Source of the DNA: Liolophura sinensis
Taxonomy: Eukaryota > Mollusca > Polyplacophora > Chitonida > Chitonidae
Direction: 5' to 3'
NCBI RefSeq assembly: GCF_032854445.1
Contig: NC_088303.1
Location: forward strand, 27,693,265-27,757,264
Length of the DNA: 64,000 bases
Shown here: piece after piece, positions 30,782-64,000 of the stretch
How the letters are laid out: every line of letters begins with the position of its first letter
How positions within the stretch are numbered: position 1 is the first letter of the stretch
Program-made: the position numbers and the translations under genes
The notes under the pieces: model-generated
What the model was told of the DNA's origin: nothing
Databases searched by the model: none
What the model saw: only the letters and a program-made list of their open reading frames with translations

Positions 30782-30881
30782 ATGCAAGCCATCAGCATGA
30801 AGAGAGAGCTCTTGACGGTTTTCAGTCTGGTGTCCAGTCTGGTGTCCACGGTCTCAACAGCTTGCCTGCCAGCTGATCTCG
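30782..30881 (+). other. VKR: Receptor exon 1: signal peptide
   Basis: [20 protein letters not shown] is a typical n- and h-region, with a likely cleavage after STA. A second in-frame Met five codons into the ORF could also start translation. The exon probably begins at 30492, after the acceptor TCTGTTTCAG. Confidence 0.75.
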
Positions 30882-33800: not shown

Positions 33801-36800
33801 TAGTGAACAGTACAGTTTGTTTTCCGCTTTTCGATTGGGACACTGGAATGTTGGACATAAGTTCCCAGTTTACACGAAGAAGCCGGCAGTTTTAACGACT
33901 CTTATTGGCTGAGGGTGTTAAGGATGGAGGGCGCGATGGACTCAGTGGTTTATGCCAGCTTTGTCGTTTTCAGGCTTTACGAGTATGGCGAGGAAAAATC
34001 ACAAAATTATGCAGCAGGCACCACCAGATAGAAAAAAATGTGCTCTTTTGAGCCTATAGTGTCAAAATTTTGTCTTCTTCTCCTTTAATGAGAATAAATA
34101 ATTTGTTGTAAACAAATGTATAGTAATACCCGTTTTGGCTTAAAGTGAGTTGTATCGTAGTGCAATGAATTCCGATACACCGATATCATTACATTCCAAG
34201 TCAGAAGCAGTATATTAAAGAATGATATTGGAAACTATGAACTTTATAAGGTGTACAATGTACTGCACCTGTAGTGAGTGGATCACTAATTATGACTCAT
34301 TCTGTCTATTAACCTGTGTGATATTAAATGGTTGTATTCATTCAGTTCCCTGAACATCCATTCCCATCATACAGTGTGATAACCATGCAAAAATTCCTTG
34401 TAAAGCTTGGTACAATTTGATGAGAAATGTCTGTTACATTATCTGTTTTTGAAGCATCACTGTTTGCTCATGTTAGTTACATAGGCATTGCCAGAGGACA
34501 GTGACAGGAGTTAAATGAAGCAAAATGTTTTTAAAGAAAAAAAAAGATGGATCAACCTATGGAAATCTGAAATAGTAAACTAAAAGTGTTGGTGTTGTTA
34601 TTGCAGCGGCCAGCCGTGTGCGTTATTTCTACTGCCAGGAGCGTAACCTGCCGATCGTGTTGGAGACAAGCAGCCGGTTGTCACACCAAGTTGTCACCCA
34701 CATCTTGCAGGTGCTGCTAGTGGAGAGGCTGGGCTACAGGGATGTACCCATTGTGGAAAAGCTGGACATGAATGCCACTGCTATCATAGACAGGATAGCA
34801 GGCTGCCATCAATCCAGGTTGGCAGCTCTTTACAAGCACACACTCTCTGACACAGAGCTAGGTGGTGAGGACTAAGTTCTGTAAGGTTTAGAGAGTACAG
34901 GTCATATCAGATTAGACAGAATCTCAGGGCCACACTGACCGTGCCAGCTACATGTACATGTACTCAGATAAACTTTGTAGAAAACTGACCTTAGCTTAAA
35001 AAGTGCAATTGTTAAAAGAAAGAACAGTTTATTTGAAATGCCAGCATCAGAATGAACAGAACAAGCTTCACACACAAAAAAATTTCATGCCACTATTAGT
35101 AAATACCCTAGCTTTATCCCTCTAGAAATGTTGAAGAGGAATAGAAGAGAGATTGCTTATTTCATGTAGTAGTCTGCTCAACAAGATGTCAAAACTTTAC
35201 CTGTTCATTTAACACTTGCTACATCCTTTTTTAGCACTCACTTTGTCATTGAACTCAAGCTTAAAAGGAAGTAAGTGTTTACATTGTGTGAAATCCCATT
35301 TTTCTCTGTGCTGTACTTTGTTAGTAAAATTCCAAGTGTACTTTTCTGTGATTTACAATATGAAAAGCAGATGTGATTTTTCACCAACAAATCACCTGCC
35401 TGAATAGCGCCTCACCGAATTACCTTCCTTGAGGTCACTCAAACTAAGTAAGCTTATGGTTAGGTGGGACCTCAGAAGAATGCCTAACTGCAAGTGTCAG
35501 AGTTGAAGTAACATGAGCAAGTGGAAAACCTAGCTTTGAGACTGATTTGAATTTTGTAAATGTATTTGGAAAGTTCTGTGCATTTTTATTCATCCATTTG
35601 AAGGTTTAATAATTTTAAATTTCTGGGTCTAATAATAGACAAATTCAGCAAGTTGAAAAACATGGACTGATATTTTTTTTTCACATTTTGTTGCCAAGAA
35701 AATATGTGTTACTGTTTGCAGCTTTAATAGGTAAGATCGCACTTCATGTAGTTTCACACCTTACAAACTAATCTCGCGTCATGTCATAGTCGCTGTTGTG
35801 TAACAAGGAAGGTAATTCAGAGCAGGTCTATTACAGTTAGTACAGCAGGACCATTAGTTTGTGAATATTTCATGAAATTATTGGCGAATTATGATACATA
35901 CCCTGTGATTTGAGCTTGTGCGGTTTGGGTTTCTTTAGTTGTCGTCATGAGCTGATGGATGAGCGAGTCATACCAGAGACGATGGTGAACATCGGCGTGT
36001 GGTTACCAGCGGGCTTCAGCAAATCGCAGTGGACAGAGCACAAGAGAATAGTAGATTGTGGCCCTTTAGGACCGTTTGGGAGGTTGGTAACTTTGTAACA
36101 TATACAGTACGCCACAGTTTTATGGTGAACTACCACGCAAAAATTATTGTCAGCAGTCTTCTCCTGTTATTCTGGATAACTGGGAAATTTTTTTTGTGAA
36201 AATTATGAAGCATTTCAGTATAAATTCAACATGAGTTATTTTATTTTGCTGTTGTCAGGCTGGGATGGTTCATGTCCACTAATGATGTGGAGGATTTTTG
36301 GAACTTAGGAGTTATCGCTGACCACTGGAGAGCACTCAAACTCCAAGATGTCCTCATGCGGTTTTCTCTGGGGAAAGAAGAGATGGATGAGATCAGAGTG
36401 TTGACAAAGCGAGAGGGCTCCGATGAGCCACAGTGTAACTCTGCTGACTGTGAGAATGGAATGTTTTATGGACATAAGTGTAAAGAGACTGGTCGCAAGT
36501 GTGCCATATTGTTGTCAAGTTATCCAGGTAAGGTCAAAACAGTTGGCTCTTTTCATGTTGATATAACGAAGTATTTGAATGTCTAAACAGTAGACGAAGA
36601 ATGCAAGCATTTGTTTGCATGAATTTTGCTGAGTTTGTAGTTTTCTTTTATGCAGTGGTTTACATTGGACCCAGGACATATCCAAGAAAGATTTTTTTGG
36701 ATTGATTGGTTTTTTTATTCACCATTACGGCATATAGATTACAGTCATCATTACATAAACTAATGGCGGGAATTCGGCTCTTAGTGAGCTTGTTCTATCC

Positions 36801-39800
36801 CATAACAATGGAACAGATATACTCAAATAGCAGACATAGTAAATGTGATATATAATTGTAGAAATGTAGAGTGTTAAATTTTTAAAAAAATAAAATAATG
36901 CTTCGTGGAAATGTAATGGCGTATGTGCAACATACCAATCTAGTAGAAACTAAATTTCCAATGAGTGTGCTTTGACCTCATATTTAAGTAGAGAGGTTGA
37001 ACAAACTAGCCAAAGGTTTGTTGGTAATTTATTCAAATCACAAGTACATTACAGGGTCTGTTTTTCTCTATTTGAAGAGTTGCGGGGGGTATTGATAGGC
37101 TGGCACTGAGTGGTGTTGGTATATTGGGGTTGGAAGGGGCATCGATAACTTTGGACTGAGTGGTGTTGGTATATTGGGGTTGGGAGGGTTATTGATAACC
37201 TGGGACTGAGTGGTGTTGGTAGTTCGGGGTTGGAAGGGGCATCAATAACCTGGGGCTGAGTAGTGTTGGTATATTGGGGGGTGGGGGGTATTGATAACCT
37301 GGGGCTGAGTGGTGTTGGTATGTTGGGGGGTGGAGGGTATTGATAACCTGGGACTGAGTGGTGTTGGTATGTTGGAAGGGATATTGATAACCTGCGACTG
37401 AGTGGCGTTGTTATATTGGGTTTGGGAAGGGTATTGATAAACTGGTACTGGTAGTGTTGGTATGTTGGAGCTGAGTGTGGTGTTGAAATATTGAGGCTGG
37501 GTGGGGTATTCATATCTTGGGACTGGGTGGGATGTTTGTATACAGCGACTGGGTGGGGTGACAATATCCTGGAACAGTGTAGTGTGTTGCTGAGACTAGT
37601 GTTTTCTTTGTTTTCCAGCCATAGACCAAGGTGTGCTGATTTCTCAGGTGAGACTGCTGGAACTTCCCGTCATCATCGTCTGGATTGGACCCCATCTCTC
37701 ACCTTACATCCAACAACGAAACCGACAAAATCTTCCTGTTCTGTTTTTTGACTGGCAGACAAACACGTTAACATCGTCTGGCAATTTCACGCGTTTAAAA
37801 TTCCCTACCTGTGGTACGGTAGGGACTCAGTTACCTCAGGCCTGCGACTACGATGTGAATCAGCTGACTAAATTAGCCTGGTCTAAAATAAAAGCGCGGG
37901 CCCCTGCTGCCTTCCACCTGCTGTCTCACATGAGCCTCACACAGGAGCAGTACAAAGAAATAGCTCTTGAGTACAATGAGAACGAGGGGAAGAAGACCAT
38001 TCCTGATCTAGCCTGTGATTGGATAAAAGCTAATCACCACATATGGAATAAGTGGATCTCCAAAGACTGGTCAGACAAGACAAACGTCTTGCTGGGTGGA
38101 TTCTTCCCAATATCTGGCCAGTATCTTTCCCAGCCAGGGCTGGTACAGGGTAAGTACATTTAACACGTGTACACATTTGTATTGTTAAATTCTACATGTA
38201 TTAGTATCATACTGTTGTAGAAATACAATGCATTGTATGAAAATGGGACATTTTAATTTAATAAGGTTATTTCTTTTTATGATCATTTTAAATAATGAAA
38301 TGATTTAAAAGCATTTATATACATTTACTTTGTCTTAAAATATTTCATGAAAAATCACAAATAGGATATAGTTTTAAAGTAACAAAACTGACCTATCATT
38401 GCTTTGAACCTCTACAGAATTTTGGACAGTTAATGTATTTTTTTAGTTAATTGGTTTCAAATTTCCGAACGTTTGTATTGACAGGGGCCAAGATGGCCAT
38501 TGAGCTGATCAACAAAAACAGCAGTATTTTACCTCATCACAACCTGGACATCATTGTCAGTGACACCCACTGTACCCCTGATGTGGCCACTAAAGCCTTC
38601 ATCAAGTACATCACCAGTGACCACAAGGCCAAACTGGCTGGGATTCTAGGTACGGAGGTTTATACACAGGCTTTAAAGCCAGGACTCTAAAGTCATTGTG
38701 GGATAAAAAGATTTTTTAACTGCCTTGACTACAAATTCTGAAAACATATGTTGTCAGGGTTGTCTACTCTAGCCCACTATTGCTGTAGGGAATTGTACCT
38801 AGGCTGTCATTGGCTCATCAGTTCAAAATGCTATTAGGAAGAACCGATAAATGTTCAGGTGACCTGTTCAAATCAAGTACAGCTGTATCCTGAAATTTGT
38901 TCTAGTAAGCAGTGGAACTTTTTGGAGCCATTTACAAAAATGTATAGAGGGTTATTGTAAACCAGGTGTGAGCACCCAAATTCTTGCCCCAAGGTATGAT
39001 TACAAATAAAAGTTTATTTTATAAATATAAACAAAGTGTACTTTGCATATCTTGTAACAGATATCCAAAATTATAACTTTGAATGTGTTATAATGAACAT
39101 AGGCTTGTTTGTTAGTAGCTTTTGATTGTTTTGTTAACTAAATGTTCTCAAAATTCCTTTAACTTTAAATGTACATGCTGGGCAGGCAGGCATTGCTTTG
39201 TATTGCATCTCTGTTACACTACTGGGGCCACTGTCATATTCCTTTGTTAATCAATTTTTTACAACTTTTCTTGTCTATCACGTTGCCTTATGGCGCCACA
39301 ACCCAGTCTTTTACAGAAATTATGAAAAAAAAAGTTATGCGAAGTATAACTTAAAACTGTTGTGAAAGTGTCCCTTGTTTGTTAAAGGGGGCCCACTTTC
39401 ACAAAACTCTTTCTTGTAAATTTGTCTAGGTTAAAGTGCCGTAAGGAGAGGTCATTTACGAGAAAAGTTACGAAAAACTGATTTACGAAGTTTTGTGAAA
39501 GTGGGCCTAGGGCCCTCAAGCCTTAGTTCTTGTTTTGTTGATGTAACATCAAAATCAGCATTGACATGTAAAATCTGTGATCATGCATTGCAAGTTCACC
39601 TTTGTAATACATGTAGTGAGGATAGAATGAGAACCTTGGAATCCCCTTAAGGTATCGTTATCTGTTCATTATTACAGGACCAGCATGCTCAGATGCAGCT
39701 GAACCTATAGCAGCTTTGGCCAAACATTTCAACATGATCACCGTAAGTTATGAGGCAGAGGCCATGTCACTGGCAGACAGAACGCGCTACCCTTACTTCT

Positions 39801-42440
39801 TCAGGACTATACCTCAAGTCTGTAGACATAGGTGAGTACTGTAGTTGTGAAAGCTGTACATTTATACCACCAACAGGCATTGTGCATATTAGATTTCACT
39901 TAATGTTTCACTTATCATTTTTCAAGTGACATTGTTTGCTTGATTCTGAGCAATTCATCCACCTTGTGGTGCCATTTAAGGGCTTTTTGTGAAGTTTGAT
40001 TGTTTGATTCTGAGCAGTTCATCCACCTTGTGGTGCAATTTAAGGACTTTTTGTGAAGTTTGATTGCTTGATTCTGAGCAATTCATCCACCTTGTGGTGC
40101 CATTTAAGCACTTTTTGTGAAGTTTGGTTGTTTGATTCTGAGCAATTCATCCACCTTGTGGTGCCATTTAAGGGCTTTCTATGAAGTTTGATTGTTTGAT
40201 TCTGAGCAATTCATCCACCTTGCGGTGCCATTTAAGCGCTTTTTGTGAAGTTTGATTGTTTGATTCTGAGCAGTTCATCCACCTTGTGGTGCCATTTAAG
40301 GGCTTTTTGTGAAGTTTGATTGTTTGATTCTGAGCAATTCATCCACCTTGTGGTGCCATTTAAGCACTTTTTGTGAAGTTTGGTTGTTTGATTCTGAGCA
40401 ATTCATCCACCTTGTGGTGCCATTTAAGGGCTTTCTATGAAGTTTGATTGTTTGATTCTGAGCAATTCATCCACCTTGCGGTGCCATTTAAGCGCTTTTT
40501 GTGAAGTTTGATTGTTTGATTCTGAGCAGTTCATCCACCTTGTGGTGCCATTTAAGGGCTTTCTATGAAGTTTAATTGCTTGATTCTGAGCAATTCATCC
40601 ACCTTGTGGTGCCATTTAAGGGCTTTTTGTGAAGTTTGATTGTTTGATTCTGAGCAGTTCATCCACCTTGTGCAATTTAAGGGCTTTTTGTGAAGTTTGG
40701 TTGCTTGATTCTGAGCACTTCATCCACCTTGTGGTGCCATTTAAGGGCTTTCTATGAAGTTTGATTGTTTGATTTTGAGCAGTTCATCCACCTTGTGGTG
40801 CCATGTAAGGGCTTTCTATGAAGTTTAATTGCTTGATTCTGAGCAGTTCATCCACCTTGTGGTGCCATTTAAGGGCTTTCTATGAAGTTTAATTGCTTGA
40901 TTCTGAGCAATTCATCCACCTTGTGGTGCCATTTAAGGGCTTTTTGTGAAGTTTGATTGTTTGATTCTGAGCAGTTCATCCACCTTGTGGTGCAATTTAA
41001 GGGCTTTTTGTGAAGTTTGATTGTTTGATTCTGAGCAGTTCATCCACCTTGTGGTGCCATTTAAGGGCTTTCTATGAAGTTTAATTGCTTGATTCTGAGC
41101 AATTCATCCACCTTGTGGTGCCATTTAAGGGCTTTTTGTGAAGTTTGATTGTTTGATTCTGAGCAGTTCATCCACTTTGTGGTGCAATTTAAGGGCTTTT
41201 TGTGAAGTTTGATTGCTTGATTCTGAGCAGTTCATCCATCTTGTGGTGCCATTTAAGGGCTTTTTGTGAAGTTTGATTGTTTGATTCTGAGCACTTCATC
41301 CACCTTGTGGTGCCATTTAAGGGCTTTTTGTTAAGTTAAATTTCTATCAGAAAAACTGAACTGAAGAAAAATCAAAAGTATTACTTTAAGGCCTTTATGT
41401 GCTTCTGAAAGTTCCTTCTTACATAGCAAACTCTAGGGGAAACACAGTAGTCTCCCGGAGATGTATCTTGTGGCTTGTGTTTGAGATGCTTGTCTTTGGA
41501 TGGACACTCAAGATTTTTGAGATTCTGATATTCTGTCTGCGTTGTGCAATGAAAACACTTACCATCAGTCCGTTGTCAAAACAAGCTCTACTGTTGGGTT
41601 TATTTTATTTTTTCTTCGCATAAATTAACACTAATTTAACCAATGTTATTCTGGCTCTAACCCGGATAAAATAAAGATATGGATGACAGTAAAATTAAAG
41701 AACAGTCAATTACCAAATGAAGTAGAAAGCTGTGTTATTCTTTGGTTCTGTGGTAGAGACCATTGGTTAAGAGGAGTAACTCTGATTCAATACCAAAAGG
41801 TCAAAGCTCTTATATGAGTTTAAAAAAACTTCAACAATCCAATATTTCTGTGAATTTGTGGGACCCTTTAAAATGGAAGTACCTGATGAGAAATTAAAAT
41901 GGTTGTGTAATAGAAAATAAAAACAAGGTTACTGTTGTGTGTCACAGTCGACTTTAGTTTAATGCCAGAGGTCACCCAAATTTATAGATGAAACCTTGTG
42001 TGCCATTTATCAAGATATGCTGTTCTTTCAGGTTTGTGTATGCTGATTTTTTCCGTAAGATGGGTTGGAAACAGGTGGGTACTCTGTCTGAGAGTGGTCA
42101 GGAGCTGCCTGAGTATCACATCCTGCTGCAGGACTACCTTAGCATTAAGGGCATCACCATCGCTGTCAAGAGGAAGATACTGCGGGCAGCACAAACATTT
42201 GATCTCTCACAGGTAACTGATCTTTATTTTGATACATGTAGGTAGGGGTTTGATTTTCTTTCATCCTGGAAGTTGTAGATAATTTTCTTGAGCTGATGGT
42301 TGATTTCTGATGAATTGATGTTAAATTATTCTTGTCACTTACATATGTTGCAACTTTCTTATCAGTTGATGTTTTTTGGAAGCTTTCTTATCAGTTTCTG
42401 TCTCCTCTTATGATGAACACCTATCGCCTGTTTTTGTGTC

Positions 42441-42472
<32 letters not shown>

Positions 42473-45400
42473 TCTGATGATTTGTTTTGTCTCAGAATGT
42501 TTAGCAGGAACTTCCAGAGTCCACTATCTTTCCTTTAATTTAGTAAACATTAAGAGATGAGCAAAATTACTCACTGTCGTGCAGATTGGAATACAGTCAA
42601 ACCACCTTGTAAAGTACAAACACCATTTTATCCTCAATACTTTCAGGTGTTTGCAGAGATAAGAGAGAAGAATGTGCGCGTGATCATCTGTGACATGTTT
42701 GAACCTGCAGCAAGGGCGGTCATGTGTGAAGCATATAGACAGGTTTGGCAATCATCTGCTTCACGCTTCAAACTTAATATCATCTGCCTGCAGATTACTT
42801 CAGTAGCCATTGAGAAAATATATTCTTTGTCTATGTGTCCAAAATCTCTTTGCAGTTTGTCTAATCTTAAAAATATGTTTTTAACAAATTAATTGACTTT
42901 ACTTATTATTTCATTCCAACTTCCAATTCCAGTGACAAATGAATTTTTAAAAAGAAAGTTTAAACAATTGTGACGCTCCTTGTGTAAGTGATAATTGTGA
43001 TAAGTGCGGTTTTTGAAATTGTACATAAAGTATTGTCATGAATCTGTGGAATGCAGGAAATGTTGTTAACAAGTGCTTCTGTAGAGTTTAAACTTAAAAC
43101 TTGATGATGTTCACTCTGAATGTGTTTACGTAGAACACGATCAAGGTAAGGGAAACTTATTTTTGTGGTACTTCATAATAAAGATGAACACCAAAGAAAA
43201 AGGCTTTGTGCTATATGGAAATCTTTTTCTCTTTAGAAAATGACAGCATATGAAGGCTATGTGTGGTTCCTGCCAGCTTGGTTCAGCGAGGAGTGGTCCG
43301 ATGTGGACTACTTTAACAGGAGGCCCAACACAGGCGATTCACAACCTCAAGAAAACACTCCCTGTAGCACGGAGCAGATGAACCGTGCCATTCAGGGTCA
43401 TTTTGTCTTGTCCAAAGCATTTTATGATGGTGACAACACGGAGGTTGTTGGTGGACTGACAGTCAATCAGTACCGTCAGGAGTACGAGAAACGTGTGGGC
43501 AGAGAGGTAAACTCTCAACACTGCTAAACCCAGAGGCAAAAAACACATTTTTCTTTGTTTTTCTTATCTGACAAATCCTGTTTGTGCATTCTATACGGTG
43601 ACTGGTAAAAACTGTGGAGAAGTGAGATTTGAAGTTAATTTAAGCCATTTATGTCATATACTTTGTCACAGAATCAGACATAAATGTAAGTGTTACACAG
43701 TTTTGAGTTCATATTATAAAAACTGACAAGACTTTTCTTGAAACGAGAGTGAGACAAGATTTTTTTTCTTAAATTGTCTGACTAATGACTAATAGGTTGC
43801 AAATTTTGTCTGATTATTAGAGTTTTATTAATTATACTATGGTGTTTTGAGGATTTTTTTATTTTTGTTTTTGGAAGGTAGGATGATACCCTACTGGAAT
43901 ATGTAAGTTTCTGCACCAAAAGTAATATTTCCTGACATGTATTTATTTTATAACATTCATTTATTGTAATAACCGTCCTGTCTGTCCATCAGAATGTTGA
44001 CAGCACCCCGTTTGCCTCGTACGTCTACGATGCTGTATGGACCTGGGCCTTCGCATTGCACAAACTATTCTTAGAACAGCCTATTGCTATAGAGCACCTG
44101 AACACCAAAAATACCACGGAGTAAGTAATCTACCTGGGACAGAAGTTAGCCATTTGTTTCAAGCAAAAGATCTGAAGCAGCCAAATACCTTTGAACATGT
44201 TTGTCTACAATATCAGGCCTTTTTTTTTAAGATGTGTGTTAAAAGATTGTGTCTGGGGCAGAAGAAGCCTGGTTTTCTGTGCTGATACTGCAAAAAAAGC
44301 TTTGGATGTGGATAGTTCAAACCTGTAGTTTGTAATTGCTATCAGAAAAGCCAAATTTAATCCCCGAGTCAGGTCATGTCTTACACTTCAAATCTGGTGA
44401 TATTGGTACCTTCATACATCCATGGCTTTCGGTATACGGGAATAGTCCTAGGCCTGGGCAATATCAGTACACTGTTATGTCTGGTGTCTTCTGCATGGAA
44501 TTCCAGTGAGGCAGCACCATAAATGTGTTAGCATTGGGATTGGCCTGCTGCATGAAGACACCACTGTGGTATGATTGAGGCAGTGTGGGAAGTGATGTTA
44601 TACTGCCAAGAACCAAATAGTAGTGTTTTGAGCTCTGTATTCACAGGGCACTGATGAAAGTCATGACCTAGACAAACTTTCAGGGAGTGAACATTCATCA
44701 TGCTTGTGCAATCATGACCGTGATGCTGTGTGTTCTGTATTTACAGGGCATTAATGAGAGCCATGACCAAGACCAACTTCCAGGGAGTGACAGGCTGGAT
44801 TTCCTTCAAGGGAGCAGACAGAATAGGCATTTTGACCATTGAACAACATTTTCTAAATGGCACAAATCTTGTGGGTCGCTACCTCCCAGACACGGTCTCG
44901 GATCAAGGAACTCTTCAGCTGGATGAAGACAAAATAGTGTGGCTGACTGGGAGTCGGCCGCATGATGGGCGGCCAGGTAGTGCCATTAAGCCTCACATGC
45001 ATGGTTAGTGCTTGCTGATTTCACTCCCTCACCCTATTAACACCGCTCATGTCCAGCATTAAGCATCCACACACTGTGTTGTGTTATTACCATACCACCA
45101 CCCCATATTGGGGAAGCTGTATGAGTTATGTCTGTATATTTCTCTCCAGGTATTGTTACCCTACTTGAGGTTGGCCTTAATTGATCTTGAATTGATTGCT
45201 GATGACAGCACTATTGTATACTAAGAGGTGATTTTCTGTTTCCTTTAATATAGATGAAGGTGCACTTCGAGGAGTTGTGATTGTTTTAAGCTAGAAATGA
45301 GTCATGCCTGCAATGAATAATTTGAAAGAAGCTGTCTGGATTTGTAAGAAAATTGTGAAAGGCTTCTTTATGTTAATTTGTTTTTGTGCAGCATGAAACT

Positions 45401-48400
45401 GAATCAGAAGTAGTAATTTGAAACCATACCAAGAGTGGTGCAGTGTTCAGTAAAACATAGTTTTGTGACCATAAAATACTAGTAAAGTCGCCAGCTGTAA
45501 ACTAATTTTTCTTCTTCCAAAAATGCCTAAATCATATGATATATGAACGCTTCATACTGAAGCCTTTGTCTTTATTCTCTATCATGTGTGTAAGAAGTCA
45601 ACAGAAACCATATGTATGGTTAGGTGTCTAATGCACAGTAAATGTCAAAGTTGCGATATGCACATTAAATTAACACGTTTGAATTCCTGTCATGTGAATG
45701 ATCTGGTGAACTCTACAACAGGTAAGAAGTTTAGCTTTGGGCTTTTGACTTAAGTCTCAGACTGAAACTAAGCCTGGGCTTAATTTCTAATACATTTTTC
45801 AACAACTTGACTCGCGGTACAGTACTGTATTTCACCTAAATTTTGGTATTTTTGAGAAGAACCATTTTGCTTAGTTCTAAGTGATTAGTTCAAAAGTGTT
45901 TTGTTTTTTTTCTTTTCTGAAATTTACTTAACTTTTTTGCCGTAAACTGTAAGTGTTAGTATTTATGGTATCATTTTAAGGCCTTTGTGAGCTTCTGGAG
46001 GTGCATTTTCACATGCCAAACTAGGTGAAGTACAGTAGTTGATAGCTCATCTATATGCGTGCAGGAAAACCGATGTGTTCATGTAAATTATTACTCATAT
46101 GTAACTTCCACGTAGCTGGAATCTTCCCAAAATACCCACCCATATTAATCAACAACCCATCATAACCTGTACAGTTTAATACTGTGTCACGGCCTGATCT
46201 TGTCATTCATGTATTCATAGTTACTAGTACACTTGTATGAAGATGTGAGGTGCACCAAGTTATCTGTTTGTCACTTATTTATGAATGCAGTTTTAATACA
46301 GCACATATCACTAAAAAAAAACAAAAAAAAAACAGCTGTGGACCAGTTCTGACTTCGACTGCTAAGGGCTAGTTCTAAGATGTTTATGGGCCAGCTCTAG
46401 GATGTTTATGAGCCAGTTTTAAGATGTCTTTGGGCTAGTTATGACATTTGTAGTTCTAAGATTTCTACGGAAGATGACTAAGGTCTACCGCTAAGATGTG
46501 TCTGGGCCAGTTCTAAGGTGTCTATGGGCTCATTTTAAGATGTCTACAGGCTAGTTCTAAAGTGCCTATGGGCAATTTCTTGGATGTCTACAGGCTAGTT
46601 CTAAGATATCTGTGGGCAAGTTCTAGGATGTCTACAGGCTAGTTTTAAGATGTCTAAGGGCAAATTCTCGGATGTCTACAGGCTAGTTTTAAGATGTCTA
46701 AGGGCAAGTTCTAAGATGTCTGCAAGTTAGTTTTAAGATGTCTGTGGGCTGTTTCTAGGATGTCTATAGGCTAGTTTTAAGATGTCTAAGGGCAAATTCT
46801 CGGATGTCTACAGGCTAGTTCTAAGATGTCTATGGACAAGTTCTAGGATGTCTACAGGCTAGTTTTAAGATGTCTGTGGACAAGTTCTAGGATGTCTACA
46901 GGCTAGGTTTAAGATGTCTAAGGGCAAATTCTTGGATGTCTGTGGGCTAGTTCTAAGATGTCTGTGGGCAAGTTCTAGGATGTCTACAGGCTAGTTTTAA
47001 GATGTCTAAGGGCAAATTCTCGGATGTCTACAGGCTAGTTCTAAGATGTCTATGGACAAGTTCTAGGATGTCTACAGGCTAGTTTTAAGATGTCTAAGGG
47101 CAAATTCTCGGATGTCTACAGGCTAGTTCTAAGATGTCTGTGGGCAAATTCTAGGATGTCTACAGGCTAGTTTTAAGATGTCTAAGGGCAAATTCTCGGA
47201 TGTCTACAGGCTAGTTCTAAGATGTCTATGGACAAGTTCTAGGATGTCTACAGGCTAGTTTTAAGATGTCTAAGGGCAAATTCTCGGATGTCTACAGGCT
47301 AGTTCTAAGATGTCTGTGGGCAAGTTCTAGGATGTCTACAGGCTAGTTTTAAGATGTCTAAGGGCAAATTCTCGGATGTCTACAGGCTAGTTCTAAGGTG
47401 TCTATGGACAAGTTTTAGGATGTTTAGAGGCTAGTTTTAAGATGTCTAAGGGCAAATTCTCGGATGTCTACAGGCTAGTTCTAAGATGTCTGTGGGCAAG
47501 TTCTAGGATGTCTACAGGCTAGTTTTAAGATGTTTAAGGGCAAATTCTCGGATGTCTACAGGCTAGTTCTAAGATGTCTATGGACAAGCTCTAGGATGTC
47601 TACAGGCTAGTTCTAAGATGTCTGTGGGCAAGTTCTAGGATGTCTACAGGCTAGTTTTAAGATATCTGTGGGCTGTTTCTCGGATGTCTACAGGCTAGTT
47701 TTAAGATGTCTGCAAGTTAGTTTTAAGATGTCTGTGGGCTGTTTCTAGGATGTCTATAGGCTAGTTTTAAGATGTCTATGGACAAGTTCTAGGATGTCTA
47801 CAGGCTAGTTTTAAGATGTCTGTAGACAAGTTCTAGGATGTCTACAGGCTAGTTCTAAGATGTCTGTGGGCTAGTTCTAGGATGTCTACAGGCTAGTTCA
47901 AAGATGTGTACAGGCTAGTTCTTAGCTTTTTATGGGCTAGTTCATTCAATACTACAGTCTAAATTCCACATAAGGTAACACTTTTGGTTTATAGTTGACG
48001 TATATCACCAAAACCTGCGAGAAACATTAAAGCCTGACAAATGATTACAACAGTCATGTTGTGCCTGTTATGTACTGAAACTGTATGTAATTGTTGCTCC
48101 ATAAACAATTTGTTTTTGGAATTTCTAACAGTAGTATTGTGAAACATGCATGAATGCATGTGAACAATAATTTGCACAAATTGAATGTAGAGTTAAATGA
48201 TATGACATGTCTTTCCTTGTATAAGAGTTTATAAGTAACAAACAAATAAACTCTGCCACAAAGTATTTGGTAACAAATGATTGTTTCAAATAGCATGCAC
48301 TTGAGCCTGAATCCACTGCAAAAATACCTATTGCTGTAGTGGACCACTTTAACTCCATGTTCTCGCACTGTTCTTGATAAAATAAACTATATCAGAGGAA

Positions 48401-51400
48401 ATTATCCACTGATTGAAGTTTTAACTGAAACTGTTCATCTGGATACCTGCAAGTCTGAGATCCACGAAATGTTGGCTTATTGCAATTTTTACTTTTCGTG
48501 TTGGACAATGTTCATGATGATTAGTTCTGAGTACTTGTTTGAACATTGGATATAACATATACTGTGTAACATTTGTAACATATTCAGTGAGGCTTTGACA
48601 ACAGAGCACAATTTACAGGAAGATGTGTTTTTCAAGTTTTCTGAATCCGATAAGACTGTCATGAAACATCTGTCTTGAAGGGACTTTTGTTTACATATAT
48701 TGCTAATGGTAAATAACACCTCTCATATCATAGGTCATTCAATTAAACTCTACAAATATCTCATCATGATATGAACTAGCATATTTGGTCTTTTTTGCAA
48801 ATTTGTGTGATTAGCTAAAATCATATGCCTAAGATATTCATGCAGATTCCTGCGCACATTTACCTAGTCTTACCATGTTTATCATAGGTGGAGACATACA
48901 CAGTTATAGATCATGCAAACATTGGTCATTTTAGTTAGGACGACTAGAGTAGGTTGTAACCAGTCAGTTCTATGAAGTGTTCACTGTAGCCCTAGTATAT
49001 GTCTCTCTCGCTCCATCTCCACATAGATCCTGATCTGTGCAGTGTTGAGCCTCTCCGTTTACTGCTGAACGTCAACTGTGAGTCGGCCATCATCATTCTC
49101 AATGTCGTCTGTCTAGGCATCTTCATCATCATCACCATTATTCTGCTGCTTGTCCTGAAAAGAAGGTAGGAACATTTAACAGCCTGCCAGACATTCAATA
49201 TGCATTTTTTCGTGTTTGACATGTTTTCATGGGGGGGGAATACATGGATGATATGCAAGAATTTCTTCACTTACACAATGTTGTCAGGTTTATAAGTGGT
49301 GGAAACTAGACATGGAAAACCACTGACCTTTGGCAAATTACTAATGAACTTTCCCATGGATGGCGTACAGAATTACACTTGATATTGGTGAAGACAAGTG
49401 AACTTTTGCGAAACTGGTGCTGGTGGTCACTAAGGCACCACGAACAGTGAGAGCAGCAAAAGTGCTCGCTAATTTGTATTAGTGTGCAGCTAGCAATAAA
49501 CCAGAACCTTCTGGAAGAAAAATTTTTCAAACACATTAAAAAATACATTAATGTAATTATGCTATACTTTGATGGAAGCACTATTGCATACATTTTGCTA
49601 CATCTTCTTACGTACATCATTTTATTACATTATTTCCTTATTACTTGCAGGTATGATGCAAAGGTAAAGGCCACTCAGGATCGTATGAAGGAACTTGGCC
49701 TTTTGCCATCAGATTTATCTGCTTACCTGTCACTGGATGAATGGGAGATCCCGAGGGATCAGGTTGTGCTCAACAGACGCCTCGGGGAAGGGGCCTTTGG
49801 AACAGTGTATGGAGGAGAAGCTTATTTTTCTTCGGATGGGTGGCTGGCAGTTGCTGTGAAAACTTTAAAAATTGGTGCGAGTATAGAAGAGAAGGTAGGT
49901 GAAATTTTACAGTCAACTATGAGATAATAGAACTTATAAACTTTTCATGAAATCATGCTAAATATAGAAGTAGATTTCTAAAAACTGGTTTTCGGTGATA
50001 AAAAGTGAACTGAAAGGACCACCAGCTTCTAAATCCACAGGTTTCACTTTTTGAAAAATTAATTCGACTAGAAATACTTGGTCTACATATTTGTATTCAG
50101 CTGTCATTTTACTGAAAGTGGATTGTCTTTACTTTCATACCTGGTCTTACTAGGTGTAAATATATATATATATACAGACTGTCTGCCTGCAGCTTTCAGG
50201 AGATGTGCAAAGAACGGTGCTCATTTTATCCATTTACCCATAAAGCTAGTAGCTATCATACCTGTGAAAATACTCTTGAGTGGCACCTAACACCACTATC
50301 AAACTATGTGTAACAATAACAAAAAAACTATTTTCATCAGCTCTGATAATTTATTTTTTATTTGGAGAAAAATGAAAAACAATTATCTTGGGACTGTGAA
50401 AAAGAATACTCAAACGTCATAAAAACGGCTGTTTGATTAGTGTGTGCACCTTGTTTGTGTCATTTGTAAACAGTTGGTAGCTGTTATCTCTGAGACTGTA
50501 ACTGTTGTTGGAGGCCTCCCTGGTTCAGAAAGATAAAGTTCTGGCTCACTGTGACTATCAGATACTTGGGCAGTTAGGTCACATGTTCACGCTTGCAGTT
50601 TTGGCTGCAGCTTTAAGTCAGAAAGTTTGATGCATAGAAACCAAGGGTCGGTGGTGTACTGCGGGCACTTCCCCCCCCCACCCATAATCAGTCATCATAG
50701 CTGAAAGATTCTGTCGTTCAGAGTCAGTTACGTACATGTAACTATCACTGTCTTATTTAAGCTGGACTTCCTGAGCGAGGCTGAACTGATGAAACGCTTC
50801 AAGCACGCAAACATTGTGCAGTTACTGGGCGTGTGCACAAGGGGCGAGCCAGCGTATGCCATCATGGAGTTCATGTTACATGGTGAGATACCTGTTGTTT
50901 TTGTATTCCATGTACCAAAGAGGCTTGAGTTGGGCAATTATGTGTTCATGATAGTGCCATAATCATTATGAATCAGAGGATTATGTGATATTAGTTGATA
51001 TTGTAATGTTGCCTCAGTGAATATATAGGAGACATTATCTTGCATCAGACAAAATACTTTCTTTCACTGGGCAGCAATGCTCATCTAAGGGACTTGTATT
51101 TCTGAATCCAGTAGCTGATACCATATCATGCATTACTAGGATATACCTACCTTTGGTCATGTTTTGGTATGTAAACTTTCAGTTTTCCACTATGGCATCA
51201 TCCTACCTTCCTCAAAATGTCTTTCTCACAGAATCCGGCAAAATGAGTAATTTTGGACATTTTAGGGCACATACAGTATTTGGGGCAACATTTTATGTGA
51301 GTCTATGTCTTATCCATGCAGTTAAGTGAACAAAATCAACACTGCATGTAATGTGTGATGTGTTTCAGGTGACTTGAAGACCTATTTGTTATCGCGCCGT

Positions 51401-54400
51401 AATCTTGTGGGTCAGAACAGTAAAGAGGCTGAGGATGTGACTGCAAGACGGTTGACTCAAATGGCTTTAGACATTGCTAATGGGATGAAGTATCTTCATG
51501 ATTTCAAATACGTTCACAGGTAAGGTGTTGCTAGAACTGATTAGCCACAGTTAGATTGTTTTGTCAAATCTTATCGCACGTCCGTTTTTATCATGGTTTA
51601 CAGCCATTCATAAGTGATAAGAACCGCCTCTTATGTTGAAATATTTTAAGTCATCCTCCTGTTGAGATGGGTTTATGGGGATTTGAACTGTGGGTGTGAA
51701 CTTTTAAACCTGAGCCACTGATTAGTATTTTGCCCACAGTATATTTATAAAATAGCGGAAAACCATTCTTACATGTATGTATAAAAGTCGAGCTAAGAAA
51801 AATCATTCAAGCTTTGAATACAGCTTTGCAAAGAAAAATGATGTCAGCGGGACTTATTCCAGTAATTCAGCTGTTTAGGATGTAAACTGTTGAGCTCTCG
51901 ATATGTTTTATATACCAATGTCAATATTTTGACCTGCCAAATCAGCCAGTGATAGTCGAGAATCACAGGTAATGTAGGGGCAATGTCTCCATCATAACTC
52001 CATACCTTTCTCTATTACATCTTGTCTGAAAACAATATCTGAAAAATATAGTGTAACAAAATCTCAAAGAGTCAACATCAGTGAAACTGAGCTGTCTCTT
52101 CCCTGATTACACTGTTTGTGAAGCCTTCGTGACAGTAAGCGATCAACAATGCTTGTGTGACTCTTCCCCAGTTTTAAATTTATTTATTTGTTTATTTGAT
52201 TGGTGTTTTATGCCGTACTCAAGAATATTTCACCTAAACGACGGCGACCAGCATTATGGTCGGAGGAAACTGGGCTAAAACCCACGACCATCCACAGGCT
52301 GCTGGCAGACCTTCCCACATACGGCAATTTTAAATTCATTGAAGACTAATTGTCTTCAATCATTATGGCATTCAGGTCTGTATGTAACAGGCACATGAGA
52401 AATGGTGTCAGTAGCTTGCTCAAGGCCTGTGGTAAGGTTCTTTAGTATGGCTCAACAACAATCAGTAAATAAATGAATAAATTTTTTTAGGTAAAAAACT
52501 AAAGTTGATCAATTGTCTTCCATGCTATACCTCAGAGGTGAGAAAATTTGTCACCATAAACCAGATGTTAGTGGGTTGAGTTTTGTCCACCCATAAAACT
52601 GACCACAATAGTGAAAAGTGAAAATATGGAGTTCAGCAACAAACAAATAAAGAAAGATATTTGGTTCCTTCATACTCTGATGAGTTTGGATTACAGTTAA
52701 CTTTATGTTTCCTCAAATCCTTACTAGAAGCTGCAGAAAGAGTAGAGACCACCAAGAAAAAAAGAGACACACTAAAGTCAAGATGCTGTCAGTTTGAAGC
52801 TTTAGTCCGATTGGCTGTTTGAGGGTAAAGCTTTACCCTAAAAAGCTTTTTTAGTATAGCGCACTGATGTGTTTTCATGTAATAGATAGAAGTTTTGTCT
52901 TTCAGGGACTTGGCGTGTAGAAACTGTTTGGTTCATGGAAGTAAGACTGTGATGATAGGTGACTTTGGCATGACACGCCCAATGACTGATGCTGAATATT
53001 ACAGATTTAACAGAAAAGGTGAGTAGTACCAAAGGCTATCAGGTGGTATATGTACCTCATGTTGCAATAGTGCTTAACGTATCCAGTATTTCCAGTAATT
53101 ACTGTAACTCTTCAACCCTATCAACCACGAAAGCACTTTTATCAGTGGAATTTATGCATAAAATTATTGTGGAAATGACACCAAGAATGATTTGCTTGTG
53201 TCACTAAAAATGTAAGCTTCATGAAACTGTCCAAATTTTCTCTCTACACTCTATAGTTCTCTTAGGAGAACGTTTCAAAATATTGGTTGCAGATGCGCTT
53301 GAAAAGGTTGAAGAATGGGGGTCGTTTATACGTTGGCATTTTAGACTTACATAGTACTCTTTTTCTTGGTTCGAACAATTCGTACATTTGTCCTTCATTT
53401 TGCCCCTGTGTTCTGTTCAATCTTTTGTATCTTCAAACTACCTAGAGTATCAACATGGAACCTTCTTTAATAGCTACTTTGTCATTGTGATTTTTTTAAT
53501 GTCTTGTAAAATCTGTACCTTAATCTTTCTGTCCTCCTGCTTTTCCATATCTGGTGTTTTATTCAGAGTTGTGTCTATAAAGTGCATTTGTATTAACATG
53601 AAACATGTTTTAATAGATAACTTACACATTGTCAACTCAAAGCGCTCTATCATAGTCTCATTTTTCTGGGCGTCAGTACATGTATAAGAATTTTGATGTG
53701 TTTTTCGTGACAAAGAGGGAAGCATGTGTCTTGTAAGTGGACTTACAATTTTTTTTATGTTATACAACCACTTAATTTCCGATGTTGAACTTCTTGGAAA
53801 GAGCATTTACACATTGGCCCATGTGTACACTGAAATGTTACATCGGAGTACTAACATTTGATGCGGTCTTAACCTAAGAGGACAAATGCGTGTTTCAGGG
53901 ATCCTGCCTGTACGGTGGATGTCCCCAGAGAGCTTGTGTGATGGTATCTTCACCTCCATGTCTGACATATGGAGTTACGGGGTGCTGGTCTACGAGATAG
54001 TCACCTTTGGTAGTTTTCCTTACCAAGGTTTGTCTAATAACCAGGTGTTAGAGTATGTGAAGATGGGCAGTAAGCTGACCCCTCCTGTCAACTGCCCTGA
54101 GCTGCTGTAAGTATCGCAGTTTGGCCTCACTCATCTGAATGCTATTTATAGCAGTTTTAAGGATTTCTGTACACAGTTTTGTTGTTCATCATGACATTTT
54201 TTCATACTGATGCTGCTGTGCATAACAAAAATCGTAAAAAGAGAAAAAACTCATGAAGCAGATTATAAGTTTAGAGCTAAAACCCATTTCTTTTGTGATA
54301 TGATTTATATTTATGAGTTGTCATAGAATTATGTGTATTTCAAAGAAATCGCGTAAATATGAGTGAAGAGCAAAGATCTTTACTGCAACTTGATATTTTT

Positions 54401-55338
54401 CTTGGAAGTCGGTGGTGCACTAAAGAATTGTAGGGTTTACAATGAAATCAGCTTGTCTAAATTCCCAAGTAACACTTCTTTTTTTAAATTCAAAATTTAC
54501 AATCTCTTTTTATGTTACCTTTATGGACAGTTTGTATGGAAGATCATCATTTTTAAGTAAATAAATGCAGATACAGACAGAATTACAGTTTTAATGTAAA
54601 AAAAAAGGAAATTACCTGATTTTACTGTAATACTGTGTGTGAACTTTCTTATTTAACAAATGATATTATTGTATGGAATCTGTCCCTAATGGCTGATTAA
54701 ACACAGAGAGTTTGAGTGCTGAGGTGGTTATTCTGTATTTCAGGACAGACTTTATCAGTCAGTGTACAGAGTTCAACCCTTATAAGAGGCCTAAGGCAGA
54801 AGAAATTATAGAAATCTTGTCGAAAGAGAAGGAGTTCCTTCAGCCAACCCTGGACGCTCCTAGCAGTGCTGTGGTCATGGAGTGCACAGACAGTGTCGAA
54901 ATCAAATCTTCCAATCAAAACACTGTGACGCGTTCAAGCACGCTTAACTTCCCTATAAACATCAAACGTTCGTCGAGTTCTCAGGAACGGCTAGCCCTTC
55001 TGAGGAGCAATTTGCATGTGCCACCTCACTGTGTAAGAGTGTCGCAGGCCAAGTCGGCCTCGCCGCGCTCCACCCTCACTGAGACATCCACGCCTGACAG
55101 ACAGCGCCGACACAGCATTGCTACGTTGCTTCACACCCCACGCAATAGCATGTCCCCCAGCCAGAGCCAGACCCAACTCCTGCCTCTCCTGGGCAGTGGC
55201 AGTGTTACAACAACAACACCCCGTACCCCTCCTCCACAGGCAGCTCCCCCTATCTACCAGGCGGACAAGGGAGACAACAGCAGCGACTACTTCAGTGATA
55301 ACTCTAAGGAGATGTGCCAGGCAATAACAACAGTTTGA
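30782..55338 (+). CDS. VKR: Venus kinase receptor-like tyrosine kinase with an extra OpuAC domain, 19 exons, 1349 aa
   Basis: Single-pass cell-surface receptor tyrosine kinase. Coding exons: 30782-30881, 34607-34817, 35939-36082, 36259-36527, 37619-38149, 38485-38649, 39678-39831, 42032-42212, 42647-42742, 43237-43506, 43993-44120, 44747-44976, 49027-49165, 49651-49894, 50762-50882, 51369-51519, 52906-53018, 53899-54106, 54744-55338. All are GT-AG, phases agree, and the total is 1350 codons with stop. Order: signal peptide (about 1-28), OpuAC-like clamp (about 45-388), GABA-B-like Venus flytrap (about 397-810), transmembrane helix (about 846-870), kinase (about 905-1180), Ser/Pro-rich tail. 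Venus kinase receptors join a class C GPCR-type flytrap to an insulin-receptor-type kinase; flatworm and insect members act in reproduction, and reported ligands include amino acids and peptide hormones. The exon 2 donor (AG|GTTGGC) is the least certain junction. The OpuAC module is the unusual part. Confidence 0.9.
31206..31424 (+). mobile_element. Palindromic MITE, family A copy 1
   Basis: Starts AATTCTTCAACCTTTTCAAC and ends with the inverted GGTTGAAAAGGTTGAAGAT. About 219 bp, non-coding. The copy at 53106-53316 is the reverse complement of this one over its whole length. It lies in receptor intron 1. Confidence 0.75.
31437..32203 (+). mobile_element. Fold-back DNA transposon, family B
   Basis: It begins AATTCTTCAACCTTATTGCA and ends ATGCAAAATGGTTGAGGAAT. 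Internal arms 31606-31660 and about 32105-32165 are inverted copies that share AGAAGTATGCAACTTCCCTA. About 767 bp with no ORF of note. It starts only 13 bases after family A copy 1. Part of its left half recurs at 61.9-62.3 kb in opposite orientation. Confidence 0.7.
32345..32449 (-). mobile_element. tRNA-derived SINE, 5'-truncated fragment
   Basis: Only the tail-proximal body (TTTGATTGGTGTTTCACAC, CTCAAGAATATT) and part of the central domain remain. It lies in receptor intron 1. Confidence 0.75.
33541..34088. mobile_element. TTAA-bounded MITE in receptor intron 1
   Basis: TTAAAGGAGAGGAAAAC at the left pairs with the reverse complement of the right end (TTAAAGGAGAAGAAGACAAA). TTAA at both boundaries is the target preference of piggyBac and some other superfamilies, so this is likely a non-autonomous member of such a group. 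548 bp, no coding potential. Confidence 0.65.
34607..38058 (+). other. VKR: Receptor exons 2-5: OpuAC/ProX-like ligand-binding domain
   Basis: By-eye alignment to E. coli ProX, the periplasmic glycine-betaine/proline-betaine binding protein, runs end to end: [18 protein letters not shown] against the ProX LGY segment, [10 protein letters not shown] against its [24 protein letters not shown] against PVFYYTWTPYW, and [13 protein letters not shown] then [12 protein letters not shown] against the ProX C-terminal helices. Trp125 lines up with ProX Trp65 and Trp263 with ProX Trp188, two of the three betaine-caging tryptophans. The third (ProX Trp140) falls in CNSADCENG and is not a Trp. [12 protein letters not shown] matches a common family pattern. 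Extracellular placement follows from the signal peptide. The ligand is unknown. Confidence 0.8.
37080..37560. repeat. Minisatellite, 50-bp unit, receptor intron 4
   Basis: About nine units carrying GGGACTGAGTGGTGTTGGTA then TATTGGGG; unit starts at 37105, 37155 and 37205 show the exact 50-base spacing. The array is G-rich on the plus strand and runs almost to the exon 5 acceptor at 37618. It produces a spurious 171-codon minus-strand ORF. Confidence 0.85.
39388..39507. mobile_element. Short palindromic element, receptor intron 6
   Basis: GGCCCACTTTCACAAAACT at the left is exactly inverted as AGTTTTGTGAAAGTGGGCC at the right; the whole is about 120 bp and can fold into one hairpin. It is probably a MITE. 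Confidence 0.75.
39941..41335. repeat. Minisatellite, 64-bp unit with 256-bp higher-order period, receptor intron 7
   Basis: About 22 copies of a 64-bp unit beginning TGATTCTGAGCAATTCATCC. Units start at 39941, 40005 and 40069. The variant TTGCGGTGCC occurs at 40221 and again at 40477, 256 bases apart, in identical flanking units. This shows duplication of four-unit blocks. Each unit holds a small palindrome, CACC-TTGT-GGTG. Confidence 0.95.
42441..42472. repeat. (TGA)n microsatellite
   Basis: Ten and a half copies of TGA in receptor intron 8. Confidence 0.95.
44633..44693 (+). pseudogene. Duplicated fragment of receptor exon 12 (dead exon)
   Basis: TCACAG then GGCACTGATGAAAGTCATGA repeats the acceptor and first 40-odd bases of the real exon 12, which starts at 44747 with GGCATTAATGAGAGCCATGA. 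The two acceptors are exactly 100 bases apart. In the exon 12 frame the fragment reads ALMKVMT and then a stop, and the rest of the exon is missing, so it cannot replace exon 12. Confidence 0.8.
46345..47945. repeat. Minisatellite, 22-bp unit with 176-bp higher-order period, receptor intron 12
   Basis: About 73 copies of 22-bp units such as GATGTCTACAGGCTAGTTTT-AA and GATGTCTAAGGGCAAATTCT-CG. The TATGGACAAG variant falls at 47051, 47227, 47403 and 47579, each 176 bases (eight units) apart. This defines a regular higher-order repeat in the centre; order decays towards both edges. Confidence 0.95.
49027..49165 (+). other. VKR: Receptor exon 13: transmembrane helix
   Basis: Residues 846-870 are an uninterrupted hydrophobic run including [18 protein letters not shown], closed on the cytoplasmic side by KRR, as expected for a type I membrane protein. 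Confidence 0.95.
52179..52325 (-). mobile_element. tRNA-derived SINE, 5'-truncated, receptor intron 16
   Basis: TTTATTTATTTG tail, body (ATTGGTGTTTTATGCCGTAC) and central domain end abruptly at ACATACGGC; the tRNA-like head is absent. It is antisense to the receptor transcript. Confidence 0.85.
53106..53316 (-). mobile_element. Palindromic MITE, family A copy 2
   Basis: Reverse complement of 31206-31424: it shares AATTTATGCATA, AAGCTTCAT and the ends AACTCTTCAACC and AAAAGGTTGAAGAAT. It lies in receptor intron 17. Confidence 0.75.
54829..55338 (+). other. VKR: Receptor C-terminal cytoplasmic tail
   Basis: About 170 residues rich in Ser, Thr, Pro and Gln, with a basic patch [12 protein letters not shown] that resembles a basophilic kinase site, and two tyrosines in acidic or polar contexts (PPIYQAD, SSDYFSD) that could recruit SH2 or PTB adaptors. 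Stop TGA at 55336-55338. No further domain. Confidence 0.8.
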
Positions 55339-63504: not shown

Positions 63505-64000
63505 GCCACACTGTGGATTCCCCAGGTTAACTTGCCTGTTGATTCACCAGGCAGACTCACCTGTTTATTCACCGGGTTAACTTGCCTGTAGATTTACCAC
63601 GTTAACTCACCTGTTTATTCACCGGGTTGATTCGCCTGTGGATTCACCACGTTAACTCACCTGTTTATTCACCAGGTTGACTCACCTGTAAATTTACCAC
63701 GTTAACTCACCTGTTTACTCACCGGAGTGACTCGCCTGTGGATTCATCACGTTAACTCACCTGGAGGATTCACCACGTTAACTCACTTGTGGATTCCCCA
63801 GGTTAACTCACCTGTTTATTCACCGGGTTGACTCGCCTGTAGATTCACCACGTTAACTCACCTGGAGGATTCACCACGTTAACTCACCTGTGGATTCACC
63901 AGGTTAACTTGCCTGTTGATTCACCAGGCAGACTCGCCTGTTTATTCACCGGGTTGACTCGCCCATAGATTTACCACGTTAACTTACCTGTAGATTCACC
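63505..64000. repeat. Minisatellite, about 25-bp unit, continuing past the window end
   Basis: About 19 copies alternating between forms like GTTAACTCACCTGTTTATTC and GTTGACTCGCCTGTAGATTC, giving a 50-bp dimer. The array is cut by the window edge. If the minus-strand exon at 63148-63240 is real, the array lies in its upstream intron. Confidence 0.9.

Follow-up and report, generated by a model that had tools for sequence, protein, structure and literature searches.

Does the extracellular part of a Venus kinase receptor (VKR) hold one ligand-binding clamp or two? The question is raised by a gene in a 64,000-nucleotide stretch of the genome of the polyplacophoran mollusc Liolophura sinensis, here called the window, for which a preliminary description had proposed a receptor tyrosine kinase with two clamps, an OpuAC/ProX-like domain standing ahead of a Venus flytrap. 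Published accounts of VKRs give a single flytrap, as in the available portions of PMC2680970, PMC3703292, PMC4026697 and PMC4522560 and likewise in those of PMC4038586, PMC5601475 and PMC4888303. We find that the gene is this mollusc's Venus kinase receptor, an ordinary VKR orthologue, and that an OpuAC-type domain followed by a flytrap looks, from sequence comparison, like the standard VKR ectodomain. What deserves notice concerns the family as a whole: a second VKR clamp which goes without mention in the literature we searched, and which revises the accepted plan of the ectodomain. Searches for VKRs with OpuAC and for OpuAC in metazoa returned no description, in a literature that mostly lay outside subscription journals and in which other wording is possible; those pairing OpuAC with a tyrosine kinase returned, by listing, bacterial and plant papers only, one pairing VKRs with substrate-binding proteins brought up, by listing, a Dictyostelium G-protein-coupled receptor, and among the titles listed by a broader search there was none about VKRs.

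Identity of the receptor

The gene as rebuilt from the DNA comprises 19 exons on the + strand (30782-55338), with 18 of 18 introns GT-AG and phases consistent throughout, and its product is 1358 amino acids long, followed by a stop codon and without an internal stop. The 19-exon, phase-consistent frame described earlier therefore stands, while its count of 1349 codons does not; some exon edges must differ, without consequence. From N to C terminus the product consists of a signal peptide, an OpuAC-type domain (residues ~29-395), a GABA-B1-like flytrap (~399-800), one transmembrane helix and an intact insulin-receptor-like kinase. The signal peptide and the single helix had both been proposed before and are supported by Kyte-Doolittle hydropathy, which gives a hydrophobic, signal-peptide-like start at residues ~10-29 (a call made on hydropathy only) and one strong transmembrane peak, of mean 3.2, at residues ~853-880. 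A lesser hydrophobic stretch (1.83) falls at residues 246-265, within the OpuAC-type domain.

Applied to the whole protein, Pfam places a tyrosine kinase at residues 921-1186 (5.3e-85) and an ANF_receptor domain at residues 420-776 (4.7e-53). The best relatives of the kinase in the Protein Data Bank (PDB) are insulin receptors (7e-88), Venus kinase receptor 2 (7ZVS) standing at 2.3e-81, and the best solved relative of the flytrap, the second clamp of the protein, is the ectodomain of GABA-B receptor subunit 1 (2.1e-46); the GABA-B-like flytrap and the intact insulin-receptor-like kinase of the preliminary description are thereby confirmed. GABA-B receptors are themselves class C G-protein-coupled receptors and are not known to carry a kinase or an OpuAC-type domain.

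The combination by which a VKR is recognised, namely an extracellular flytrap, a single transmembrane helix and an intracellular tyrosine kinase, is present, and the kinase carries all of the motifs GxGxxG, VAVK, HRDxAxRN, DFG, YY and PVRWMxPE, including those listed for active VKRs in the accessible part of PMC4026697. GYVWFLPAW, from residue 624, fits the flytrap motif GY(V/I)WFLPxW of PMC3703292 (seen in part), and GPACS (residue 474) and RTIP (residue 516) resemble S66 and R107 of that paper by local motif only, their spacing being a few residues off. The 27 best matches to the window protein are VKR-type; the kinase tree considered below held no outgroup kinase. One relative, LOTGIDRAFT_109151, shares 51% of its residues with the window protein across 97% of the latter's length, and the 2013 family paper (PMC3703292), in the portion available, lists LgVKR as Lottia 109151. 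With LgVKR, AmVKR, SmVKR1/2 and AaeVKR the window protein thus has in common the GABA-B-type flytrap, the transmembrane helix, the insulin-receptor-like kinase and GYVWFLP. Its domain order is that of most VKRs compared, and the difference lies in the published description, which in the portions available has one flytrap only.

Kinship of the N-terminal domain

We conclude that the N-terminal domain is homologous to OpuAC/TmoX proteins; it is not classed as a betaine-binding protein, because the complete ligand cage was looked for and not found. The Pfam OpuAC model (PF04069, cut-off 21.2 bits) matches residues 272-378 of the whole protein with 20.9 bits (3e-4), rises to 25.5 bits (1.2e-5) on the N-terminal region alone, and matches the N-domains of five of eight relatives at E <= 0.01. 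Of the domains named in the preliminary description, the kinase and ANF_receptor are accordingly recovered strongly, and OpuAC with scores on either side of its cut-off. The NCBIfam ProX model gives a weak match in two of eight members, in the C-terminal part, with 24.6 bits against a cut-off of 215. Relative to the glycine-betaine-binding ProX/OpuAC proteins, then, the likeness concerns the C-terminal part of the VKR domain, whose score is close to the Pfam cut-off and far under that of NCBIfam, and whose cage is incomplete.

A profile of eight N-domains was compared with all PDB sequences, and TmoX (4XZ6) was found at 4.1e-13. Six chains were matched up to E 1, and below 0.01 only TmoX and 7YLE. 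Besides TmoX they comprise two chains with betaine-type binding names (7YLE at 0.0021, 3L6G at 0.074), 7AHC, a permease subunit of an ATP-binding cassette (ABC) transporter (0.17), and two chains whose names are unrelated (0.35 and 0.41). Alignment by hhalign of 117 VKR domains with 66 TmoX-type proteins, drawn from 80 loci, gave a probability of 97.2, an E-value of 2.8e-11 and a score of 83.4 over 275 columns, in which eight tryptophans coincide. The reversed profile reached a probability of 0.2 and 20 column shuffles at most 1.0, the top score among the controls being 21.1, and chance similarity was rejected on these grounds. Lophotrochozoans alone gave a probability of 98.0 and five random 31-row sets 96.45-97.3. 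The 275 columns support homology across the whole two-lobed domain; arthropods alone support it for the C-terminal part only.

The VKR flytrap profile had a probability of just 0.2 against TmoX. A recognisable tandem duplication as the origin of the two clamps was therefore rejected, and the earlier suggestion of two unrelated periplasmic-binding-type clamps, one of OpuAC and one of GABA-B type, holds. Compared with TmoX of Ruegeria pomeroyi, the VKR domain shows a profile match over most of its length with Trp102 and Trp222 of the ligand box aligned, but Glu131, Phe106, Trp177 and perhaps Trp55 are not retained, an extra cysteine-rich segment is present, and the domain sits in a receptor whereas TmoX sits in an ABC importer.

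One protein or two

The preliminary description had allowed that exons 2-5 might belong to an mRNA of their own. This is countered by exon 5, within which the OpuAC-type domain ends and the flytrap begins, so that two separate mRNAs are very unlikely. Several fully built relatives come from contigs of nearly coding-sequence size (P0002, 1355 amino acids on 5168 nt; P0006, 1366 on 4288 nt; P0014, 1363 on 5067 nt), and that of P0007 likewise scarcely exceeds its coding sequence; to judge from their length, these four contigs are presumably transcripts. A false merger of two adjacent genes, or a misassembly, is consequently an explanation to which we attach practically no weight and which was rejected. 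No support for a misjoin was found, although the region does have long introns with tandem repeats; besides the testimony of exon 5, all four N-domain exons stand in order on a single contig and the same domain order recurs in more than 100 proteins.

Distribution and inheritance

At least 80% of the N-domain is covered in 117 of 129 VKR-like proteins, the window's included. This set excludes P0028-P0059 and P0161-P0177, judged from their Pfam lists to be other kinases or receptors, as well as P0178-P0180; of the 138 matches of the profile search 120 are listed, and the other 18 lie outside the 129-protein count. In the first homology search 27 of 59 matches were VKR-type, the rest being other kinases or receptors by their Pfam lists. 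These 27 include at least 12 molluscs, 3 annelids and 1 wasp, and 25 of them cover at least 87% of the N-domain (P0018 covers 62% and P0024 none). Among the matches listed, the profile search added ants, bees, beetles, bugs, flies, a cockroach, termites, a scorpion, a tick and crabs. The domain is thus present in VKRs of molluscs, annelids, chelicerates, crustaceans and insects, LgVKR among them. That the architecture might already be on record for molluscs proved correct, as LgVKR and other mollusc VKRs carry it, while the notion of an arrangement peculiar to a marine mollusc was not borne out, insects being among the carriers.

Precomputed Pfam lists report OpuAC in just 4 of 128 database proteins (P0025, P0027, P0124 and P0129), which may explain why the domain was passed over. 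Many arthropod VKR-type proteins are labelled as receptor guanylate cyclase, GABA-B receptor subunit 2, atrial natriuretic peptide receptor or insulin-like peptide receptor. In the table of exons in PMC3703292, as far as available, the flytrap of the Lottia and Capitella genes begins at exon 4, that of a schistosome gene at exon 7 and that of a sea urchin gene at exon 9, so that these models already included coding sequence upstream; in Nematostella it begins at exon 2 and in the tapeworm Hymenolepis at exon 1, and there the domain may accordingly be short, overlooked or altogether absent.

Searching with this domain by itself yielded three proteins, none with a kinase: a fragment insect-like by eye, an exon-5-like fragment and a coral protein. 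The second of these, P0179, has 207 residues and matches the exon 5 region at 93% identity; its ends diverge from the spliced protein, as they would in a transcript that is incomplete or unspliced and comes from a close relative. The coral protein (P0180, Stylophora pistillata, annotated as GABA-B receptor subunit 1) has the N-domain, with its start missing, and a flytrap without a kinase; it accordingly shows domain and flytrap together rather than a complete VKR, and possibly represents a VKR whose model is truncated.

Trees of the N-domain and of the kinase, each of 31 rows hand-picked from the 129 and without outgroup, both split 13 lophotrochozoans from 18 arthropods (support 98/98 and 99/98, respectively). 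They concur on this split and on several smaller groups, though not on every detail; the window protein groups with nine other mollusc rows at 99/97 in the kinase tree and, more weakly, at 85/87 in the N-domain tree. The shared split indicates that the fusion is old. Within the 609-Mb genome searched (632 contigs, the window lying on contig C9) the N-domain exons were found once, as the four exon matches of this gene beside a chance-level match at E 0.79, and a second copy of the domain was sought there and not found. The PF04069 model returned nothing at E 0.001 in the same genome, where a single candidate was scored and fell short, presumably since so weak a match is lost in a search of that size.

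A recent, mollusc-specific gain of a bacterial gene by horizontal transfer might be suggested by the bacterial type of the fold. The distribution and the trees led us to reject it as vanishingly improbable: the domain occurs in arthropods, annelids and the coral protein too, domain and kinase trees have their main split in common, and the three matches of the domain search, in which candidates needed short exact words and 0.55-1.75 times the query length, include no bacterial protein.

Does the N-terminal clamp bind a ligand?

Dimers, activation by arginine or calcium, and neuroparsin (OEH) as the mosquito ligand have been published for other VKRs. In the accessible parts of PMC4522560 and PMC4888303 the activators outside mosquitoes are an open question, with arginine, calcium and neuroparsin reported, and no neuroparsin is found in molluscs, which do have VKR; PMC4026697, also seen in part, reports VKRs to be absent from vertebrates and to act in flatworm and insect reproduction.

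The reading we favour, with moderate confidence, is of a VKR with an ancient TmoX/ProX/OpuAC-related clamp that in most lineages probably still binds a small ligand and tunes the dimer. Some 365 residues after the signal peptide would represent a binding-protein domain of ancient origin, found generally among the VKRs compared, whose fusion to the front of the GABA-B1-like flytrap would predate the divergence of lophotrochozoans and arthropods and possibly that of cnidarians and bilaterians. The receptor would dimerise and its flytrap close on small ligands, as L-arginine does in published bee and schistosome VKRs, whereupon the insulin-receptor-like kinases would phosphorylate each other's tandem tyrosines, with Akt and MAPK signalling to follow. 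In most lineages the N-terminal clamp would close on a small ligand, cationic or zwitterionic, that W125 and W287 would hold between them, while R57 might face a carboxylate; by closing, the clamp would tune how sensitive the dimer is. It is plausible that there is a second site for a small ligand; that the pocket binds anything at all, and what its role may be, is our inference.

In the available part of PMC8918994 the TmoX box is formed by Trp55, Trp102, Phe106, Glu131, Trp177, Phe220 and Trp222, with Glu131 binding the oxygen of trimethylamine N-oxide (TMAO); a table in PMC10087775, likewise seen in part, prints E122, where our residue count fits 131, and has TmoX binding choline as well. 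Trp102 maps to W125 in seven of eight alignments, a site occupied by tryptophan in 108 of 117 rows, and Trp222 maps to W287 in all eight (88 W and 17 Y of 117). Both are tryptophan in 87 rows, and 83 have R57 in addition. Their retention speaks for a pocket that is still in use across most lineages. Mean entropy is 1.39 at the six mapped pocket sites and 2.12 over all aligned columns (sampling p 0.041). W155 is tryptophan in 117 of 117 rows, and cysteines 211, 216, 226 and 233 are kept in 114, 111, 116 and 117 rows, respectively. The segment bearing these cysteines, in exon 4, is largely a gap in the TmoX alignment and is a possible VKR-specific disulphide knot.

Several results pull in the opposite direction. 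A complete aromatic cage with its polar partner is not found, Trp102 and Trp222 alone being kept. Glu131 corresponds to L153, a hydrophobic site (84 F, 12 L and 10 Y of 117), and Phe220 to F285, which is F in 27 rows and L in 73, mostly Leu in insects. Trp55 aligns with R57 (R in 110 of 117) in only three of eight profile sets and is unaligned in five; Trp177 falls on the variable residue 243 in five sets and on 219, on 244 or nowhere in the other three, and Phe106 is unaligned. The entropy signal is weak, its p being marginal with six sites. W125 is absent from nine rows in total, among them three bugs (P0126, P0132 and P0136) and a fly (P0158), and eleven of the 117 have neither W, Y nor F at 287, this residue being Arg, His or Leu in cockroach, termite and some other insect rows. 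Five bivalve-type rows (Pinctada P0008, Ylistrum P0016, P0006, P0007 and P0012) have lost W125 and W287 together, and two of these also lack R57; animal groups are here what we take them to be from genus names. The joint loss has two readings, in that the site may be dispensable or both residues may serve one ligand which some bivalves dropped. For the domain as a whole, arthropod rows alone give a probability of 95.3 over only 108 columns of the C-terminal part, and the N-domain is the part of the relatives least identical to the window protein (27-46%, as compared with 31-58% for the flytrap and 57-73% for the kinase). Of the 12 proteins below 80% coverage, 11 cover 50-79%, and in one, P0024 of Patella, the modelled protein lacks the domain entirely; the comparison covers chiefly mollusc, annelid and arthropod VKRs.

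Much of this would also fit a domain that keeps its fold and binds no small molecule, serving instead as a spacer, a dimer contact or a docking surface for a neuroparsin-type hormone, an alternative that we regard as a real though lesser possibility. It would accommodate the missing conserved equivalents of Glu131 and Trp177, the frequent Leu at Phe220 and the persistence of the domain in bivalve-type rows stripped of both tryptophans; the conserved four-cysteine cluster at residues 211-233, lying largely in the alignment gap, suggests a remodelled lobe, and OEH, a protein hormone, is reported to bind mosquito VKR dimers (PMC4522560, in the part available). Against it stand the retention of W125, W287 and R57 across great evolutionary distances, the below-average entropy of the mapped sites (though at p 0.041) and the fact that the two tryptophans are lost jointly, as though serving one site. 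That the domain is instead a sensor of betaine, TMAO or choline as osmolytes, as the preliminary description had found attractive, seems to us unlikely. The closest solved relative is indeed TMAO-binding TmoX, listed as a choline binder too (PMC10087775, in part), and two of its box tryptophans are those that map so consistently; yet the glutamate that holds the TMAO oxygen is replaced, mostly by Phe, Leu or Tyr, Trp55 perhaps by Arg, and some marine bivalves have lost both tryptophans. Insects retain the domain, mostly with Leu for Phe220, and its retention in terrestrial insects does not favour a purely marine osmolyte role. The replaced residues thus argue against TMAO or betaine as such, and arginine, where it takes the position of a cage tryptophan, would be a fitting partner for a carboxylate.

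A more specific form of the reading we favour would make most VKRs dual-clamp receptor tyrosine kinases in which the W125/W287/R57 pocket of an ancestral, TmoX/ProX-related clamp binds a small cationic or zwitterionic metabolite and gates activation, a few bivalve lineages having lost or changed this input. We put it forward tentatively; if true, VKRs would combine metabolite sensing with an amino-acid or neuroparsin input during reproduction and growth. Should the family carry a second clamp akin to methylamine-binding proteins, earlier ligand work will have covered half of the sensor. The domain would then be a bacterial-like, screenable target within the VKR family, and the receptor the outcome of an old fusion between a domain of compatible-solute-binding type and an animal receptor kinase. 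The second clamp offers a concrete new place to look for VKR signals.

Gene structure and neighbouring features

Table 1. Exons of the Venus kinase receptor gene, with positions in the window and residues (aa) of the 1358-residue product
Exon	Position	Strand	Content	Remark
1	30782..30881	+	start codon and signal peptide, aa 1-34	frame open from 30767; hydrophobic start
2	34607..34817	+	OpuAC-type domain, first part, aa 34-104	contains R57
3	35939..36082	+	OpuAC-type domain, aa 104-152	contains W125
4	36259..36527	+	OpuAC-type domain, aa 152-242	invariant W155; C211, C216, C226, C233
5	37619..38149	+	OpuAC-type end and flytrap start, aa 242-419	F285, W287, Pfam match
6	38485..38649	+	Venus flytrap	
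7	39678..39831	+	Venus flytrap	GPACS from aa 474, RTIP from aa 516
8	42032..42212	+	Venus flytrap	
9	42647..42742	+	Venus flytrap	
10	43237..43506	+	Venus flytrap	VKR motif GYVWFLP from aa 624
11	43993..44120	+	Venus flytrap	
12	44747..45003	+	flytrap end and linker	
13	49027..49165	+	transmembrane helix	aa ~853-880
14	49651..49894	+	juxtamembrane and kinase N-lobe	GEGAFG, VAVK
15	50762..50882	+	kinase	
16	51369..51519	+	kinase	start of HRDLACRN at exon's end
17	52906..53018	+	kinase catalytic and activation loop	DFG, YY
18	53899..54106	+	kinase	PVRWMSPE
19	54744..55338	+	kinase end, C-terminal tail, stop codon	

Three introns of the receptor gene contain tandem arrays, of 50-bp units in intron 4 (37086-37468), of a 64-bp unit in intron 7 (39932-41337; 22 copies, 92% matches) and, as a minisatellite between the flytrap and transmembrane exons, of a 44-bp, 22-bp-based unit in intron 12 (46366-47943; ~33 copies). 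Further arrays occupy 15985-16498 (28-bp units) and 63511-64000 (25-bp units, running to the window end). Elsewhere in the window, an open frame on the - strand (1600-1956) with a DUF4638 match at 2e-8 is probably an exon of a different gene. Exons on the - strand at 14485-21181 match WGR (1.4e-15), PARP regulatory (1.6e-11) and PARP catalytic (1.1e-12) domains, a set that we take to be PARP2/3-like.

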